This document shows positions 33,062 through 41,817 of a DNA stretch of 64,000 bases, piece after piece. Position 1 is the first letter of the stretch; every line of letters begins with the position of its first letter. A program made the translations under genes and the position numbers. Source of the DNA: an uncultured beta proteobacterium (GTDB taxonomy: Bacteria; Pseudomonadota; Gammaproteobacteria; Burkholderiales; Burkholderiaceae_C); contig CAIVLG010000267.1 in NCBI GenBank assembly GCA_903906695.1, positions 22,418 to 86,417 on the forward strand, in the 5' to 3' direction. The notes beneath the pieces are model-generated. The model did no database searches and was not told the origin of the DNA. It saw only the letters and a list, made by a program, of their open reading frames with translations.

Positions 33062-33471
33062 TCATGAGTTGTGCGGCGAGATCACCGGTTTGCCGCTCTG
33101 CTTTTCAATATCCTTGCGGGTACGCCCGGCCACCGCACCGCCGTCTTTTGCGTCCCTCTTCGGCGGCGTCATGCCTTTGGAGTCACGGTCGCGGTGCAGC
33201 TTGGTGGTGGTGGCCTGCTCGGCCAGCATGGTCAGGATCAGTTCAATAACAGTCGGTCACCCGTTGTTTGCCGTCCGGAGCGACCATTTTCAACTGTCCG
33301 ATTTTTTCGGACAGTTCAACATAACCCTCAATACTGAGCTTCTTCTTCAGGTCGCTCCACCAGCACATCAACCACATTAATGATTGAAAACCACCACTCG
33401 CCGGCGTCGAACAGTTTGCGTATTTGTTGACCAGCAAACAAGGCCAGATTGGATTTTTTTTCATCGACCAT
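33062..33471 (-). pseudogene. Decayed Bro-N domain protein (BRO/phage-antirepressor-like)
   Basis: MVDEKKSNLALFAGQQIRKLFDAGEWWFSIINVVDVLVE; then out of frame DLKKKLSIEGYVELSEKIGQLKMVAPDGKQRVTDC; then C-terminal VIELILTMLAEQATTTKLHRDRDSKGMTPPKRDAKDGGAVAGRTRKDIEKQSGKPVISPHNS*. Confidence 0.82.
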
Positions 33472-33536: not shown

Positions 33537-34199
33537 TCACAGCCGCCCCGCTTCCAGAAAGCTGAAGTAGTCAGTTCGATTGAAGATGATGTGATCCAGG
33601 AGCGCAATACCTACGATGTCCCCGGCGGCCTTGAGCTGCTTGGTCACGTCGACATCGGACAAAGACGGTTCAACGCCACCGCTGGGGTGGTTATGTGCAA
33701 CGATGATCGCCGAAGCGCGGTCTGATAGCGCATCGGCGAACGCTTCTCGCGGATGAACCGGGCTGCGGTCAACCAGGCCGATCGACACCACACGGATGTT
33801 CAGGATCTCGTTTGCGCCATTGATGCTGGCACACAGAAAATGCTCTTGCTTGCGGTCGGCGTAATGGCGGACGTGCGGCAACAGATCGGCCGGGGTCACG
33901 ATCTTTGCGCCTTCCGGTTTGATGCGCCGACGAGCGAACTCGATGGCCGCGAGGATCAAAGTTGCCTTGGCGTCACCGACCCCCGCGAACTGCGAGAGGT
34001 CTTCGGTTTTCACGTCCAGGCCCTTTTCGTCAATGAGACGCGCCAGTTTGGAGGCGAGCGTCATCACGTCCATGCCAGGCGTGCCTTTGCCGATCAGCAC
34101 GGCCAGCAATTCCTGGTCGCTCAGTGCAGCCGCCCCTTTGCGCAGAAGCTTCTCACGCGGCCGGTCGGCTTTCGGGATGTCGTGGATGGACTTGCTCAT
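33537..34199 (-). CDS. radC: RadC family JAB/MPN-domain protein
   Basis: IIVAHNHPSGGVEPSLSDVDVT JAMM-type motif; HhH-like N-terminus; stop/start overlap with hsdR. Confidence 0.94.
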   Translation of the reverse strand: MSKSIHDIPKADRPREKLLRKGAAALSDQELLAVLIGKGTPGMDVMTLASKLARLIDEKGLDVKTEDLSQFAGVGDAKATLILAAIEFARRRIKPEGAKIVTPADLLPHVRHYADRKQEHFLCASINGANEILNIRVVSIGLVDRSPVHPREAFADALSDRASAIIVAHNHPSGGVEPSLSDVDVTKQLKAAGDIVGIALLDHIIFNRTDYFSFLEAGRL

Positions 34200-37123
34200 G
34201 AGCTCAGGCTGCCACTTGACAGATGGGTCTGGATGACGGTCACCGCCATGATGTCGAAGATGCCACCGGTGTCCGTGTATTTCGGGTCGGCCAGTTCGTC
34301 GTAACGACCGCGTTCATCGTAGATGGTCTGGATGTCGCTGTTGACTTGTCCGCGATACGGGCCTTCGAGATAAATCTGGTCAGCGCGGTGCGCGTGAACG
34401 GTAAAGCGGATGACCGGGTCGGCAATCTTCTCTTGCGTCACCTGCTTGATATAGAGCGCCTCCTCGTCGGTAATTTGGTACCTGGCGAGAATCTGCTCGA
34501 TCATGTCTTGCACGGACGACTTCACCGGCACCGGGCCTGCGCCGCCTTTTCCTCTGCCCGGCTGTAGCTTCACCGGGCCGCCGCTGGTCGTCACGCCCTG
34601 ATACTGCACCGCCGCCTTGGTAACCACTGTGGCGCGTATCTGCTTCATCAACTCGGATACAGTGCCCGCCTTGATGAGTTGCGGGCCAACCCATTCAGCG
34701 AAGGTAACGAACTCCTGAATCGCTGGCGGGTAGGTGAAGAAGCAGGTCAGGAAATGAAAGCTCTGCACGAAGCGGGCCAGCAGATAGACGAACGCTTTGC
34801 GCTCCTCCCAATCGGTGAGCTTGGCCTGAAAACGCGTGCGCAGGGCGTTGACCTGAAATTGAACCCGCGCATTCGTCCCGTTCTTGAGCAGCGCGAACAA
34901 CTCGGTAGCGTCCTGCTGGGTGAAAACATCTGCGGCCAGAATCTTCGCGTGCAGCTTCAGGCAAGTTTCCTGATCCGGCTCCTCAGGCTCGAACGGCGTG
35001 CCCTTGCGATACTTCGCAAACGCTTTCAGGATTTGCCTGGCGTTGTTGGTGAAGTCCACAACGATGACCTTCTTGCCGGGAAGGTGGCGGTTCAGGCGGG
35101 ACACGGTCTGCACAGCGTTGCGACCCAGCACCGGCTTGTCGAGGAACATGCCTGCGAGCAGGGGCTGGTCGAAGCCAGTTTGAAACTTGTTCGCCACCAC
35201 CATGATCCGATAATCGTCGCCCTCGAAGCGGTCTTCAATCAACTCACCTGGCTGCAACGCATTCACCGCGTGTTCACTGATGGCCGCGTTGGTGTCAGGG
35301 TGGACGAAATCCGAAAAAGCATACAGCACCTGGTAGTCGGCGCCGCGCTCCTTGAGCTTTTCCTTGATGATGTTGAAATAGCGCATCCCGGCCACGCGTG
35401 ACGAGGTAACAATCATCGCTTTGGCGCGCCCGCCAACGAGCGACTTCACGTCAGCCTCGAAGATGCGCAGCATCACCTCGGCCTTGTACATGATCAGTCC
35501 GTCATCCTGAAACGCCACGTTCTGCAGCGCCTTGGACACAACACCCTTTGCGTACTGCTTCTCTTCGCCCGGCTTCGGGACGATGGGGCAATGCAGGTTG
35601 TAGAGCGTCTTGTACGAGATGATGCTCGCCGCCACGTCCACAATGTAGCCCTCGGCGATGGCCTGTGCCTCGGTGTAGCTGTCAAACGGCTGGCCAAACA
35701 TCGACACGGTGGCCGGTGCCGGTGTCGCGGTGAAGGCGATGAACAACTGATTCAGGTCATGCTCGCGGATGATCCTGGCGAGTTGCTCTTCCGGGTCCTC
35801 TTCGGCTGCCTCCTCGTCCGCCTCGCCCGCCTCGCGAAACGGCAGGCGGATGGCCGCACCCATCTGGCCTTCCTGCGAGCGGTGGGCTTCATCGATCAGG
35901 AATGCCACCCGCAGCTTCTTCAATCCCGGATTGTTCTGAATCTCTTCCAGCACCCGGGCAAACTTCTGCTGCGTGGTCACGATGATGGACTTGCGCTCGT
36001 TCAGGAAACTGAGCAAATGCTCGGTCTTCTTCGCGATGCCCACCACATCCTTGAGCTGGGTGAAATTGTCAATGTCATCGCGGATATTGGTGTCAAGCGA
36101 TTTGCGATCCGTCAGGATGAACGTGATGTCCACCAGCTTCTCATTGGTGCCGGGCTTGAAGAGGCTGTGCAAGCGGTCAGCCAGCCAGCAGATGGTGAGC
36201 GTCTTGCCACTGCCAGCGGAATGGTCCACCAGATACTTCTTTCCAATATCGCCCGCCGTGGCGAAGTGGGCCTTGATGTCGTCCGCCACCCGCCGCACTA
36301 GGCGGCTTTGGTGGTAGCGCGGGAAAATGGTGAAGGCCGCTCGCGCCGGCTTGTCGTCCTTGGCTTCACGCTCCGGCACCCGCACCAGGAAGAACGACAA
36401 GGCTTCGAGCAAATGCTCCTGCGACAGCACCTCGCGGTAAAGGAACTCGACCGGATACTCGTCGGCATTCGTGGGCGTGTTGCTCAGCCCCATGTTGTGC
36501 CAACGGAAGTTTTCTTCGCGGCAAGGGTCGGTGGCGGCCATGGCGTCGCTGGTATCGGCGGCGAGGTAGAGAAAGGGATGCTGGAAAATCCTGTGCCTGT
36601 GGTCGCGCTGGGTGAACTGCGACACCGCGTCATGCACGTTCTGGTTCTTCTCGTGCTTTAACTCCAGCGCCACGATGGGCAGGCCATTGAGGTAGAAGAC
36701 GAAATCAATTTCCTGATTCGTGTCGCCGAAATAGAAGTGCGGCCGGAACGTGATGCGGTTCTCAGCGTAACCTTTGGCGCGAGCGCTCTCCGCCGAACGC
36801 GGTTTTGGAAAGTAGAGTTGGAGCTTCAATCCACGCACCGGCAAACCGTCCCGAAACAACATCCAAAGCGGTGTATGTTCCAGTTGCTTGCGCAGCGCCT
36901 TGAAGACTTCCTCGCGTGCGTCGGTGCCGTAATCAATCGCCAGCTTCTTCAGCGTGGCAGCCTGACTGGCTTGGAGAAAAGCCCAGATCTGGTCTTCGGC
37001 GATGAAATGCTCGGTATCCGTGATGTCGGACTGCTCCAGCACACCATACTTGTGCTCGCGGACCAGGTATTCCGCGATGTGCTTCTGAAATGTCAGCTCA
37101 GGGGGTTGCTTCTTCTTGGCCAT
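34196..37123 (-). CDS. hsdR: Type I restriction endonuclease subunit R
   Basis: Nuclease motif EIDFVFYLNGLPIVALELK; Walker A DHSAGSGKTLTICW; FLIDEAHRSQEGQ. Confidence 0.96.
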   Translation of the reverse strand: MAKKKQPPELTFQKHIAEYLVREHKYGVLEQSDITDTEHFIAEDQIWAFLQASQAATLKKLAIDYGTDAREEVFKALRKQLEHTPLWMLFRDGLPVRGLKLQLYFPKPRSAESARAKGYAENRITFRPHFYFGDTNQEIDFVFYLNGLPIVALELKHEKNQNVHDAVSQFTQRDHRHRIFQHPFLYLAADTSDAMAATDPCREENFRWHNMGLSNTPTNADEYPVEFLYREVLSQEHLLEALSFFLVRVPEREAKDDKPARAAFTIFPRYHQSRLVRRVADDIKAHFATAGDIGKKYLVDHSAGSGKTLTICWLADRLHSLFKPGTNEKLVDITFILTDRKSLDTNIRDDIDNFTQLKDVVGIAKKTEHLLSFLNERKSIIVTTQQKFARVLEEIQNNPGLKKLRVAFLIDEAHRSQEGQMGAAIRLPFREAGEADEEAAEEDPEEQLARIIREHDLNQLFIAFTATPAPATVSMFGQPFDSYTEAQAIAEGYIVDVAASIISYKTLYNLHCPIVPKPGEEKQYAKGVVSKALQNVAFQDDGLIMYKAEVMLRIFEADVKSLVGGRAKAMIVTSSRVAGMRYFNIIKEKLKERGADYQVLYAFSDFVHPDTNAAISEHAVNALQPGELIEDRFEGDDYRIMVVANKFQTGFDQPLLAGMFLDKPVLGRNAVQTVSRLNRHLPGKKVIVVDFTNNARQILKAFAKYRKGTPFEPEEPDQETCLKLHAKILAADVFTQQDATELFALLKNGTNARVQFQVNALRTRFQAKLTDWEERKAFVYLLARFVQSFHFLTCFFTYPPAIQEFVTFAEWVGPQLIKAGTVSELMKQIRATVVTKAAVQYQGVTTSGGPVKLQPGRGKGGAGPVPVKSSVQDMIEQILARYQITDEEALYIKQVTQEKIADPVIRFTVHAHRADQIYLEGPYRGQVNSDIQTIYDERGRYDELADPKYTDTGGIFDIMAVTVIQTHLSSGSLSS

Positions 37124-38408
37124 GCACTTTGACCCGGTTGATGTCCGCCGCAGTCACCCGCCGCTGGCCGGTAACGCATTCGTGAATCAGCGACTTGCGG
37201 TAGGCGATTAAGGTGGCGATTTGGGTTTCGATCCCGGTAATGATGCTTCTCACCTCAGCAATTTTCACGTCGAGATAGTCCGCAATTGCCTCTTGTTCCT
37301 TGCGAGTTGGTGGCAATGCCACGAGGACACTTCCCAATTCCTGGGCGTTCAAATGCGGCTGTGCGGCACGTAGCGTCAGCAGCAAGAGTTGCCCCTCCAG
37401 GACGTACCTGCTTAAGAGGCAGTAAGCGATGAAACGCGGCGATGCCCGATTCACGGTTACAACCATGTCATAACCCGCGACCGCGCCTTCCAGTGCGGCT
37501 GGAACAATCGCTGAATCACCCGTGTAAGCGCCGCTGCGAACGACGATGATCTCGCCACTTTTCAAATAGGGGTTTCGGTCATGCGGTAGTTCTTCGGGAT
37601 CTACTCGCAGAAAAGCGTCCGTCCGGATCGTCCCCGCATCTACATCGGTCGCACGGATCATGGCCACACCAGATGAAAGCACTGCAGGAGGCTGACCCAA
37701 ACCATAGCGAATGGTCGCCACGGATTTCAGCCGACCGAACCGCCAGTTGGCGGGGATTTTTGGCAAGACGACCGCCCCCGTCGGGCGCGTCTCTGCCTGT
37801 GGTCTTAGTCCAATAGTCAGAGCATTAAGAAGTATCGAGCCAGCAAGCGCATCGAGAGTTTCGAGTTGGCGGCGTTTGGCGGTCACCGCAGCGTCAATCG
37901 CCGCGCAACTCGCATCCAGATACGCTGCGATGAGTTCTTGCTCAGGTAGCGGTGGGAGCGGGAAATTGAATTGCGACAGTTGAGTCGGCCAACTGACACG
38001 AGGCATCTTTGCGCCATAGGCAAGTGCGTTGCATCGTTCGATAAACCACCGTGAGCCAAGGCAGTAAAACAAAAAGCGACTCGCGATTCGCTGCGGCTTG
38101 AACGCCAGAATTTCGCCAGTGCATTTGCCGTCAAACTCGGCAACCCAGTACTTTTCCAAGTACGGGCGCAGCTTTCCGAAGAGCACGTCTCCGGTCTTGA
38201 ACCGTGTGACGGCACTGCCAACCTCAAGGGTATTGCGGCGGCTCAGGATTCGACCAGAACCAGAGTCCAAGTCTTCGAGTTCGAGGTAATCCTCATCTGC
38301 ACTGGGTTCATCCGTCTTTTCGTTGCGCAGGGAGACGACATCCTTGAACCGGTCGGATTTCCACCCGGCAGGCAAATCATCTAGGAAGCCGTCGTATGCA
38401 GCGATCAC
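37098..38408 (-). CDS. hsdS: Type I restriction specificity subunit S
   Basis: Two target-recognition halves; PLPPLPEQELIAAYLDASCAAIDAAVTAKRRQLETL and ALPPTRKEQEAIADYLDVKIAEVRSII repeats. Confidence 0.95.
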   Translation of the reverse strand: MIAAYDGFLDDLPAGWKSDRFKDVVSLRNEKTDEPSADEDYLELEDLDSGSGRILSRRNTLEVGSAVTRFKTGDVLFGKLRPYLEKYWVAEFDGKCTGEILAFKPQRIASRFLFYCLGSRWFIERCNALAYGAKMPRVSWPTQLSQFNFPLPPLPEQELIAAYLDASCAAIDAAVTAKRRQLETLDALAGSILLNALTIGLRPQAETRPTGAVVLPKIPANWRFGRLKSVATIRYGLGQPPAVLSSGVAMIRATDVDAGTIRTDAFLRVDPEELPHDRNPYLKSGEIIVVRSGAYTGDSAIVPAALEGAVAGYDMVVTVNRASPRFIAYCLLSRYVLEGQLLLLTLRAAQPHLNAQELGSVLVALPPTRKEQEAIADYLDVKIAEVRSIITGIETQIATLIAYRKSLIHECVTGQRRVTAADINRVKVHGQEEATP

Positions 38409-39595
38409 TCTTTCCCCTTCATTTCCACCCGCACCAGGTCCGCGAGTTGTTTGGCGCTGGGCAGCTTCCCTTTCAATGCGCCCGGCAGTTTCGATTGCAA
38501 GGTATAGGCGGCAACTCCGATGGGGTTGGTTTTGGAGCGCAGGGCGTATTCGACTTCCACATCGTCCTTCTCCGCGCAGAGAATGATGCCGATGGAGGGC
38601 TGGTCCTCGGGGCCGCGCTCCTTATCGTTGAGCAGGTTCAAATAGAAATCCATCTTGCCCGCGTGTTCCGGCTCGAACGGGCCAACCTTCAGCTCGAAGG
38701 CTACCAGGGCCTTGATGTGGCGGTGATAGAACAGCAGGTCAATGAAATACTCTTTCTGGCCCAACTTCAAACGGTGCTGGCGGCCGACGAAGCAGAAGCC
38801 ATAGCCCAGCTCCAGCAGGAAAGCCTGTAGCCGCGAGATCAACCGGTCTTCAAGTTCGCGCTCTTTGACCGCGCCGCGCAGGCCCAAGAACTCCAGGCTG
38901 TAAGCACTTTTGAGCATTTCGTCCGCCTGCTCCGCCAAGTGCTCGGGCAGTGCAAGGGCAAAGTTGTGGCTTTTCTTGTCCGTCACCGTTCGGGCATACG
39001 CATTGGCCTTGATCTGGTTGAGCAAGACATTGCGTGTCCAGCCAAATTGGGCTGTAGCCTTGAGGTAGTAAAGCCGCATCGCAGCATCGCTAATCTTTTT
39101 CAGAATCAGGAGATGGTGCCCCCATGGAACCGTCGCCAGCAGTTCGAGGCTAAGCGCTTTCGATCCTGTGCGCACGACATGCTTTTTTGTGTTGACTTCT
39201 GGGACAGGCTGTCCCAGAACTACCTGCTGACCACTGGTTAAGAGTATCGATCCCGCAGAAACGGATTTTGGGACAAGCTGTCCCAGAAAGGATACGTCGT
39301 CGTAAGCCAGGAAAAACTGCCGCATGCGCCAGACGTTGTCGGCGGAGAAACTGCGACTGCTCGGGAACGCACGCCTAAGATCGGCGGCGATCATCTCGAC
39401 CACCGACTCGCCCCAGCCAAGCATTTGCTGCTTGCCGACAATGCCCCGTCCGATCTCCCAATAAAGCAGAATCAGGTTCAAATTTACGGCGCGTGCGGCC
39501 GTTGCTCGGGCAGCATTTACCCAGGCCTTGATGTCCTCAATAAGGCTTTGGTACTCAAGGGAATTCAGGACCACCGCCGTCTCCGCATTTTTCAT
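38405..39595 (-). CDS. DUF1016 (YhcG-like) PD-(D/E)XK nuclease-domain protein
   Basis: WVNAARATAARAVNLNLILLYWEIGRGIV; VGRQHRLKLGQKEYFIDLLFYHRHIKALVAFELKVGPFEPEHAGKMDFYLNLLND. Confidence 0.93.
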   Translation of the reverse strand: MKNAETAVVLNSLEYQSLIEDIKAWVNAARATAARAVNLNLILLYWEIGRGIVGKQQMLGWGESVVEMIAADLRRAFPSSRSFSADNVWRMRQFFLAYDDVSFLGQLVPKSVSAGSILLTSGQQVVLGQPVPEVNTKKHVVRTGSKALSLELLATVPWGHHLLILKKISDAAMRLYYLKATAQFGWTRNVLLNQIKANAYARTVTDKKSHNFALALPEHLAEQADEMLKSAYSLEFLGLRGAVKERELEDRLISRLQAFLLELGYGFCFVGRQHRLKLGQKEYFIDLLFYHRHIKALVAFELKVGPFEPEHAGKMDFYLNLLNDKERGPEDQPSIGIILCAEKDDVEVEYALRSKTNPIGVAAYTLQSKLPGALKGKLPSAKQLADLVRVEMKGKE

Positions 39596-41589
39596 TTCGC
39601 CAAGCCCTCCAGCATCTTCTCCGCTTCCTTCTCCAACTTCCAGAACTCGGCGAGCAGATCTTTCGCGGGCGTGGGCGGCCGGTAGCGGTAGAAGTATTTG
39701 TTCGGCAGGATTTCGTAGCCAAGGATTGGCTTGCCGTTCTTCTGTGTCTCTTCCCAGCGGATGATGGGTTTGGCGATTTCGCGCTTGAGGAAGGCCGCGA
39801 TGTCCTCGCCGAGCGGGATGTACTCGTCGTCTTGCACGTAATGCCGGTGCGTCCATTCGACGGCCAGCGTCTCGTCGGCATCGACCAGGGCTTGCTTGAA
39901 CTTGCTTGCGGCGTTGTCCTTCGCTTTGACGGTGAACGCAACGGTTTTCTCTTTGCCCTTGGCCTTCACCCGCACGCGAAAGCTCAGGTCGCTCGCGTGG
40001 AAGTCCTGCTCCTTCTTCACGTTCGCGGCAGTGAACGCCCTTTCGTAAGCCTCGGTGATGGTAGCGGGCTGGTCGTGTTCATCGGTCTGCCAGAAGACGA
40101 CGCTGACCTTGTGATATGCGAAGTCTTCGCGTGGGAAGATTTTGACCTGCTCGTCGGCATAGCCCTTGGCCCAGCCCTTTGTGTAACGCGCCTCGATCCA
40201 GGCGCGGTGCGCATCGGTGATGCGGTTGCGTTTGTTGCCGAAAGACTTGGGCTCCTTCTCGAACTGCTGGCGCGCATCGATCAGCATCACGCGCCGCTGG
40301 TGGCTGGCAGGCTTGTCATTGCGCAGCAACCATACGTAGGTGAAGATGCCGGTGTTGTAGAAAAGCTGGTCGGGCAGCATGACGATGGCGTCGAGCCAGT
40401 CGTTCTCCAGAATCGAGCGGCGGATTTCACTCTCGCCAGAGCCGCAGTCGCCATTGGAGAGGGGCGAGCCATTGAAGATGATGGCGATGCGACTGCCGCC
40501 GTCCTCGGGCGAGGCCATCTTGGCAAGCATGGTTTGCAGAAACAGCAGCGCGCCGTCATTCACGCGCGGCATTCCCGCCTTATAGCGGGTCTGCTCCAGC
40601 TTGCGGGCTTCCTTTTCGTAGCCATCCTTGCCGCCCCATGTGACGCCGAAGGGCGGATTGCTGAGCATCCGGTTGAAGCGCCACTTGCGCTCTGGCCACT
40701 GGTCGCCCGGCTCCTTGCTGTACGACTCGTGCGGGATCAGCGAGTTGCCGAGGTGGACAGTGGCCTGCCGGTCATTCTTGATGAGCAGATCGGCCTGACA
40801 GACGGCGTAGTTCGTGGGCGATAGCTCCTGCCCGTGAACCGTGACGTATTTCTCCACCCGCGCCTTTTCCTCCGGCGTGTCAGCACGCTCCAGCAGGTGC
40901 TCCTTGGCCACGGACAACATGCCGCCGGTGCCGCTGGCAGGATCGTAGATCGAGAGATGCTTGTCAGGGATCGGAATATCAAGCAACTCGACCATGAGGC
41001 GGATGACTTCGCGCGGCGTGAAGTGCTCCCCTGCCTCGTCACCGCTTTGTTCCGAAAAGCGCCGGAGCAGTTCCTCGTAGATGTAGCCCATCTCCAGCCC
41101 GGAAAGCTGGTCGGGCCCGAGCGGGAGTTCGCGGTATTGATTCAGGATCGGGGCCAGCCGGTTGTTCTTTACCATCAGGCCAATGGTGGCGCGGTAATTG
41201 AAGTGCTCGATGATGTCGTCAACGTTCTGCGAGAAGCCGTTGATGTAGGCGCGAAAATTTTCTTCCAGCAACGCGTGGTCTTCCTCATAGACCGAGCGCA
41301 GCGTCCAATCGGTGCTGTTGGAAAACGGGCACTGTTTGGGATTGAGCTCCAGTTCCTTGACCAGCTTGGCGAGTTGCTGCTCTGTGAGCTTGGGTCGCTT
41401 CTTGAGTACCTCGGCCGATTTGCTCGCTCGCCAGTCAATCAGAACGCACTCCAGACGGCGGATGACGATGATGGGCAGGATGACGCTCTGGTATTCGTAG
41501 GACTTGAACTTGCCGCGCAGGCGCTCAGCCGACTTCCAGATTTCGTTGGCGAGGTTGTCGAGCTTGGGCTTGTTGAGCGAGAGCGCCAT
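39592..41589 (-). CDS. hsdM: Type I restriction-modification DNA methyltransferase subunit M
   Basis: IYDPASGTGGML and LSNPPFGVTW methyltransferase motifs. Confidence 0.96.
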   Translation of the reverse strand: MALSLNKPKLDNLANEIWKSAERLRGKFKSYEYQSVILPIIVIRRLECVLIDWRASKSAEVLKKRPKLTEQQLAKLVKELELNPKQCPFSNSTDWTLRSVYEEDHALLEENFRAYINGFSQNVDDIIEHFNYRATIGLMVKNNRLAPILNQYRELPLGPDQLSGLEMGYIYEELLRRFSEQSGDEAGEHFTPREVIRLMVELLDIPIPDKHLSIYDPASGTGGMLSVAKEHLLERADTPEEKARVEKYVTVHGQELSPTNYAVCQADLLIKNDRQATVHLGNSLIPHESYSKEPGDQWPERKWRFNRMLSNPPFGVTWGGKDGYEKEARKLEQTRYKAGMPRVNDGALLFLQTMLAKMASPEDGGSRIAIIFNGSPLSNGDCGSGESEIRRSILENDWLDAIVMLPDQLFYNTGIFTYVWLLRNDKPASHQRRVMLIDARQQFEKEPKSFGNKRNRITDAHRAWIEARYTKGWAKGYADEQVKIFPREDFAYHKVSVVFWQTDEHDQPATITEAYERAFTAANVKKEQDFHASDLSFRVRVKAKGKEKTVAFTVKAKDNAASKFKQALVDADETLAVEWTHRHYVQDDEYIPLGEDIAAFLKREIAKPIIRWEETQKNGKPILGYEILPNKYFYRYRPPTPAKDLLAEFWKLEKEAEKMLEGLAK

Positions 41590-41740: not shown

Positions 41741-41817
41741 TGGTGCGGCTGGCAGGAATTGAACCCACGACCCCTTGGTTCGTAGCCAAGTACTCTATCC
41801 AACTGAGCTACAGCCGC
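41741..41817 (-). tRNA. tRNA-Arg (ACG)
   Basis: Minus strand GCGGCTGTAGCTCAGTTGGATAGAGTACTTGGCTACGAACCAAGGGGTCGTGGGTTCAATTCCTGCCAGCCGCACCA; loop CTACGAA. Confidence 0.95.

Follow-up and report, generated by a model that had tools for sequence, protein, structure and literature searches.

The window (the whole stretch of DNA analysed here, 64 kb in length) contains five overlapping genes of a type I restriction-modification (R-M) operon on its minus strand, in the order hsdM, DUF1016/YhcG, hsdS, hsdR and radC, and the features of the operon and its borders are listed in Table 1. The first-pass annotation had described five overlapping genes with intact catalytic motifs. All five ORFs were found intact at the positions listed, with overlaps of 4, 4, 26 and 4 nt at the hsdM/DUF1016, DUF1016/hsdS, hsdS/hsdR and hsdR/radC junctions, respectively, and the DUF1016 gene is therefore joined to hsdM and to hsdS by a 4-nt overlap at either end. 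In the translations, the catalytic motifs are present in HsdM (DPASGTGG and NPPF), HsdR (IVALELK, SAGSGKT and DEAH), DUF1016 (FID...FELK) and RadC (HNHPSGGVEPSLSD). Two features had escaped this earlier reading, namely two coding palindromes in the DUF1016 gene and a degraded Bro-N gene downstream of radC.

Table 1. Features of the operon and of its borders, in positions of the window.
Feature	Position	Strand	Product	Remarks
hsdM, type I methyltransferase subunit	39592..41589	-	665 aa	Pfam N6_Mtase 184 bits, HsdM_N
DUF1016/YhcG PD-(D/E)XK nuclease gene	38405..39595	-	396 aa	YhcG_C 199 bits, DUF1016_N 119 bits; PADLOC PDC-S02
hsdS, specificity subunit	37098..38408	-	436 aa	GTG start; two Methylase_S stretches (Pfam, PADLOC)
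hsdR, restriction/translocase subunit	34196..37123	-	975 aa	Pfam HSDR_N, SWI2_SNF2, ResIII, T1R_D3-like
radC, hsdR-linked RadC/JAMM protein	33537..34199	-	220 aa	RadC 125 bits, UPF0758_N 79 bits
Coding palindrome 1, DUF1016 gene	39266..39288		FLGQLVPK	ORF nt 308-330; sense strand TTCTGGGACAGCTTGTCCCAAAA
Coding palindrome 2, DUF1016 gene	39195..39221		VLGQPVPEV	Sense strand AGTTCTGGGACAGCCTGTCCCAGAAGT
tRNA-Arg(ACG)	41741..41817	-		Borders the operon, between operon and polA
Bro-N (antirepressor-like) gene remnant	33063..33471 (about)	-		Degraded; just downstream of radC

By Pfam and PADLOC, the operon encodes an HsdM N6 methyltransferase, a two-domain HsdS and an HsdR with nuclease and SF2 translocase domains, as in type I R-M systems, and the HsdM product matches PADLOC MTase_I (PDLC03029) with 573 bits over its full length. 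In NCBIfam, HsdR scores 201.9 bits against a cut-off of 284.55 (TIGR00348) and HsdM 91.2 bits against 242.75 (TIGR00497). Because both lie well below the equivalog cut-offs, we place them in a type I lineage that has diverged beyond the curated equivalog and that automatic annotation may miss or misname. The DUF1016 protein, which carries DUF1016_N and YhcG_C with the PD-(D/E)XK residues, is a full-length member of the DUF1016/YhcG family (COG4804, PF06250/PF17761, PDC-S02) with the E-D-ExK motif. The RadC product combines UPF0758_N and the RadC JAB domain (HxH..S..D), scores above the TIGR00608 cut-off of NCBIfam and shares its domains and JAMM motif with the RadC/UPF0758 family (PF04002, TIGR00608), of which 2qlc is a solved relative.

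The operon is probably an acquired block, since R-M genes are present in none of the eight polA neighbourhoods of same-genus genomes, one of which reads polA-tRNA-Arg-other DNA-greB. The tRNA-Arg gene is the likely insertion site. Site-specific integration at this tRNA was considered and rejected, because its 3' end has no direct repeat at the opposite border and no integrase gene was found among the ORFs inspected there. The base composition of the operon gave no distinction from its surroundings. The Bro-N remnant can be read in frames 0 and 1 as MVDEKKSNLALFAGQQIRKLFDAGEWWFSIINVVDVL and LILTMLAEQATTTKLHRD...GGAVAGRTRKDIEKQSGKPVISPHNS, interrupted by stops, and was identified by eye from the intact Bro-N genes that occupy the place between hsdS and hsdR in three related loci (L014, L016 and L018).

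The role of RadC has been disputed for decades. In the HsdR lineage of the window, radC lies directly after hsdR, at a distance of a few nt at most, in all 15 loci with a visible hsdR 3' end, and these loci belong to four phyla. The first sample consisted of the 80 closest loci retrieved via DUF1016 from a GTDB-wide collection, and carries the ascertainment bias of a DUF1016 query; in each of the retrieved loci where an hsdR of this lineage can be read to its 3' end, radC is the following gene. Reverse searches in one phylum, starting from RadC in 388 genomes and from HsdR in 376, yielded two loci (L206 and L207) with the hsdR-radC pair again; among the HsdRs of this lineage whose end was visible, none lacked RadC. 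Three more genomes, in which hsdR runs into the end of a contig, carry the pair on a different contig.

In a RadC tree that also included the remaining RadCs of the genomes concerned, 13 hsdR-linked RadCs cluster with support of 91/90. A single unlinked relative (L168) joins them on a branch of length 1.41 with 100/100 support, which separates this group from the remaining RadCs. The window RadC thus differs from other members of its family by its place in a separate, long-branched clade of hsdR-linked proteins, and a second, distant RadC of the housekeeping type is found elsewhere in the source genome (L001). The JAMM residues are kept in the 13 linked RadCs, with one variant reading HNHPEG (L180). 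The invariable adjacency and the separate clade together support RadC as a dedicated part of the operon. RadC is most likely a lineage-specific partner of HsdR: the co-occurrence is observed, while a role alongside HsdR, and a contact between the two proteins, are suggested by synteny. Earlier authors have suggested that RadC acts on nucleic acids (PMC5512222). In another locus (L209:5234-6672), a RadC 51% identical to that of the window overlaps an HsdS-like ORF (54 bits) by 4 nt; that genome lacks the HsdR lineage of the window, and this is perhaps a second type of RadC-bearing R-M operon.

The order hsdM-DUF1016-hsdS-hsdR-radC was found by a synteny search to recur in unrelated genomes, which disposes of the possibility that it is confined to the window. 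The complete module is present also in L014-L018, L031, L035 and L050 and in degraded form in L039, and hsdM-DUF1016-hsdS-(x)-hsdR-radC is found in Verrucomicrobiota, Thermodesulfobacteriota/Myxococcota and Chromatiaceae. The hsdM-DUF1016-hsdS part occurs with equally short overlaps in Verrucomicrobiota, Thermodesulfobacteriota/Myxococcota and Pseudomonadota. Further type I lineages contain it as well, on Azotobacter and Aeromonas plasmids (L193 and L197) and on viral contigs (L253, L254, L259, L266 and L269). With recurrence in other phyla at such overlaps, the gene order is far beyond chance.

The proposal of the first-pass annotation that both additional genes are functional parts of an extended type I module is partly supported: RadC is a conserved component that may be functional in it; the DUF1016 gene is recurrent and is not required. 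Locus L206, which was found independently through RadC, has a close set of HsdM, HsdS, HsdR and RadC in the order hsdM-hsdS-AAA_21-DUF4276-hsdR-radC without DUF1016, so DUF1016 can be regarded as an optional, swappable cassette. In L207 there was no DUF1016 match on a contig that ends near hsdS. The slot between hsdS and hsdR is elsewhere filled by Bro-N or by AAA_21 plus DUF4276; the latter pair, of which AAA_21 is OLD/AbiEii-like, is seen in L010 and L032, where it was named by Pfam, and in L206 and L207, where it was named by position and size. DUF1016 and RadC are both absent from a sister HsdM group (20 loci, 38-47% identical), so type I systems do not in general show this association. 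A paper of 2005 contains a single note of a link between DUF1016 and type I systems, in Methanosarcina acetivorans (PMC1189080), and PADLOC lists DUF1016 among its phage-defence candidates (PDC-S02), so the idea of a defence module is not wholly new for DUF1016.

RadC and DUF1016 might instead be hitchhikers of defence islands, without a functional tie to the type I enzyme. In most of the 80 closest loci DUF1016 occurs by itself, the gene is optional, and on viral contigs without hsd genes (L236, L241, L244 and L246) a RadC-like gene follows DUF1016 at about 300-350 nt, so that the two families also pair on mobile elements. However, the unbroken succession of hsdR and a RadC of a separate clade at almost no distance, and the ATGA-type overlaps that DUF1016 keeps with hsdM and hsdS across phyla, are not expected of mere neighbours, and we consider this explanation doubtful.

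To our knowledge, no activity is known for the DUF1016/YhcG family, which is widespread. In alignments, D286 and K303 of the D...ExK motif are invariant. The AlphaFold model of the window protein has a pLDDT of 82, and the peptide encoded by the palindromes falls in residues 108-142, for which pLDDT is below 50. The closest solved folds to the nuclease domain, the only part spanned by the Foldseek match, are those of NucS/EndoMS (DUF91), which are structure- or mismatch-specific nucleases (E value 1e-4, TM-score to query 0.23); with 15% identity over a part of the protein, this is a likeness of fold only. Profile work has placed YhcG near Holliday-junction-resolvase-like nucleases (PMC1189080). 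Membership of this family is ordinary, whereas the coding palindromes of the window gene appear to be new.

A repeat scan of the window detected two near-identical self-complementary 23-mers within the DUF1016 ORF. They belong to two near-perfect palindromes of 23-27 nt that are read in frame within the predicted-disordered stretch; the second is the sole exact palindrome with arms of at least 8 nt and a 3-nt loop in the 64 kb. A pattern search of the source genome (4.4 Mb) returned one true palindrome, in this same gene. Palindromes are present at the matching place in 166 of 176 DUF1016 genes from bacteria, archaea and viral contigs, including yhcG of E. coli K-12, and none at threshold was found in the other 10. 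In the first sets at least one was present in each of 112 genes, nearly always at the shared place; among other distant members 12 of 13 have one, the copy of a Wolbachia phage falling below threshold, and on viral contigs 43 of 49 distinct genes do. The number per gene is from one to four, and E. coli K-12 yhcG has three, with arms of up to 18 nt (L155:10130-10240). When one palindrome is taken per gene, the 166 genes contain 138 different 25-mers. We found no description of palindromes in DUF1016/YhcG/COG4804 genes in the open-access literature, and their family-wide occurrence seems to be undescribed so far.

Several controls were used for evaluating this feature. Exact arms of at least 10 nt are present in 91 of 127 genes as against 0-2 of 127 after synonymous-codon shuffling within each gene, and with a 3-nt loop such palindromes occur at 0.705 per kb in DUF1016 genes and at 0.0108 per kb in the surrounding 1.94 Mb, i.e. 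a 65-fold enrichment. In the hsdM, hsdS, hsdR and radC genes, palindromes are no more frequent than after shuffling. Pairing at positions 2 to 9 on both sides of the centre is 0.956, compared with 0.457 for shuffled columns and 0.15-0.34 for slid ones; since it is only 0.41 at the positions adjoining the centre, the loop is of 3 nt. All four Watson-Crick pairs are present in the arms. The centre is at the first codon position in 217 of 232 cases. Of the 125 genes that have a PW/SW motif, 101 place the centre at a spacing of exactly 18 or 30 nt ahead of the conserved Trp codon of this motif. The encoded peptide falls in a region for which little order is predicted, so the constraint is on the nucleic acid.

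The arms vary between DUF1016 genes while complementarity around the 3-nt loop is preserved, and within a single gene they differ, though still complementary, in 46 of 73 genes with multiple palindromes; this favours a structure over one fixed sequence or operator. A double-stranded operator, bound by a DUF1016 dimer through its N-terminal helical domain for negative autoregulation, would suit the symmetry of the sites and their uniqueness to the DUF1016 gene within the source genome, and mobile genes profit from an operator inside the coding sequence. A dimer that reads sequence, however, needs no pairing between arms that differ from site to site, nor does it account for an unpaired centre of 3 nt in each subfamily examined, so this possibility appears very unlikely.

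Sense-strand mismatches in the arms consist of 21 G.T and 23 A.C among 992 pairs, and because the two are equally rare, DNA rather than mRNA is favoured as the level of selection. This bears on a control by mRNA hairpins, which would slow or block translation of DUF1016 and of the downstream hsdS and hsdR, or bind the protein for translational autocontrol. RNA stems should tolerate G.U far more than A.C, and palindromes are equally frequent in stand-alone DUF1016 genes, where there is nothing downstream to control. The stretch nevertheless folds strongly as RNA (z of -9.3 for E. coli yhcG, -7.2 for L014, -6.6 for Enterobacter and -3.8 for the window), 3-nt loops suit RNA hairpins, and in the window the element is upstream of hsdS and hsdR; on the whole we consider such control unlikely. 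The two hairpins of the window can also pair with each other, which weakens a simple hairpin picture.

Between related genes, two-sided changes of paired positions number 666 against 121 expected if the arms changed independently, on gene pairs that are not phylogenetically independent, and one such compensatory change is seen between E. coli strains (AATTCGCCAGACAGTGTCTGGCGAATT to AATTGTGCAGACACTGTCTGCACAATT). The palindromes are probably kept by constraint at the DNA level. The chief rival to a hairpin or cruciform site is neutral upkeep, by which template switching in replication (quasi-palindrome correction) keeps the arms alike in a loop that tolerates the resulting peptides. The peptide is disordered in the model, the stretch varies widely in length in the alignment, the G.T/A.C symmetry is expected at the DNA level, and O157 yhcG lacks 78 nt spanning palindromes 2 and 3 of the three in E. 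coli. Against this, palindromes without function would hardly occupy a single in-frame position in nearly all members, whether bacterial, archaeal or from viral contigs, and be missing from other genes of the same genomes; one-sided intermediates (402 as against 596 two-sided paired changes) indicate that the arms are not instantly corrected. We therefore regard neutral upkeep as improbable.

Alleles and broken copies of the gene were also inspected. Most of E. coli yhcG (NC_000913 3367827-3368954) is matched near-identically in only 3324 of 5426 genomes, and in view of its frequent disruption the gene is not essential in this species. The half-matches were traced to IS1, inserted at nt 385 and at nt 1060, to an IS629-type insertion at nt 235 and to a deletion/insertion at nt 406; the IS1 at nt 385 and the change at nt 406 fall inside palindrome 3. 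Recombination of N- and C-terminal halves at the palindrome was rejected, because the half-matches inspected were such insertions or a deletion and included no domain swaps. Phase variation by breaks at the palindrome was likewise rejected: the split ORFs of viral contigs L221, L233 and L239 are due to in-frame TAG or TGA codons, some at conserved Trp codons, of which TGA is possibly recoded, and others are cases of simple decay.

Inverted repeats within open frames have been known from other systems, such as mitochondrial genes of Nematomorpha (PMC6649704) and the Rickettsia palindromic elements (RPEs), whose host frames likewise stay open. As far as RPEs are summarized in a citing paper (PMC4316617), they are selfish and measure about 100-150 nt, and a single genome carries them in many different genes, whereas the DUF1016 site is 20-40 nt long, belongs to one gene family and is position-locked across phyla. 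A dispersed element of the Rickettsia type was rejected on the one true palindrome in 4.4 Mb and the enrichment in DUF1016. For the operon, the closest parallel is EcoPrrI with prrC, in which an extra nuclease gene, a possible back-up effector, likewise lies inside a type I hsd operon (PMC12707154). PrrC is an anticodon nuclease, whereas the embedded gene of the window operon encodes a PD-(D/E)XK DUF1016 protein, and this operon has a dedicated radC behind hsdR.

Taken together, the mismatch symmetry at the DNA level, the varying arms, the NucS/EndoMS fold and the resolvase link make a hairpin or cruciform recognised by the encoded nuclease the leading idea. We tentatively propose, with a probability of roughly 40%, that the window contains an acquired type I operon with an HsdR-specific RadC and an optional DUF1016 nuclease, whose gene carries the palindromes as a cis-acting hairpin/cruciform site. 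To judge from their families, HsdM2S would methylate and HsdR would restrict in the standard way; RadC may act on or with HsdR, e.g. as a processing or restraint factor; and DUF1016, as an optional nuclease embedded in the operon, would probably serve as a back-up effector in the manner of PrrC. The in-gene hairpin or cruciform would be recognised by the gene's own structure-specific nuclease or a partner, by which expression or activity could be held in check, and this control element would travel with the DUF1016 gene into any operon. The wider proposal that DUF1016/YhcG is a self-targeted nuclease system, with the variable self-complementary in-frame hairpin array as its recognition or control site, is rather doubtful at present; if true, the array would be a co-evolving cis-element built into the gene and distinct from known operators, selfish palindromes and RNA antitoxins.

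While the operon is a variant on known type I systems, the palindrome system may be more than that. The hsdR-linked RadC clade provides a defined partner for studying the role of RadC. A family-wide in-gene cis-element, found in E. coli K-12 as well, makes DUF1016 directly accessible to experiment and, if the proposal is true, would represent a rare case of selection at the nucleic-acid level acting through a coding sequence across bacteria, archaea and viral contigs.
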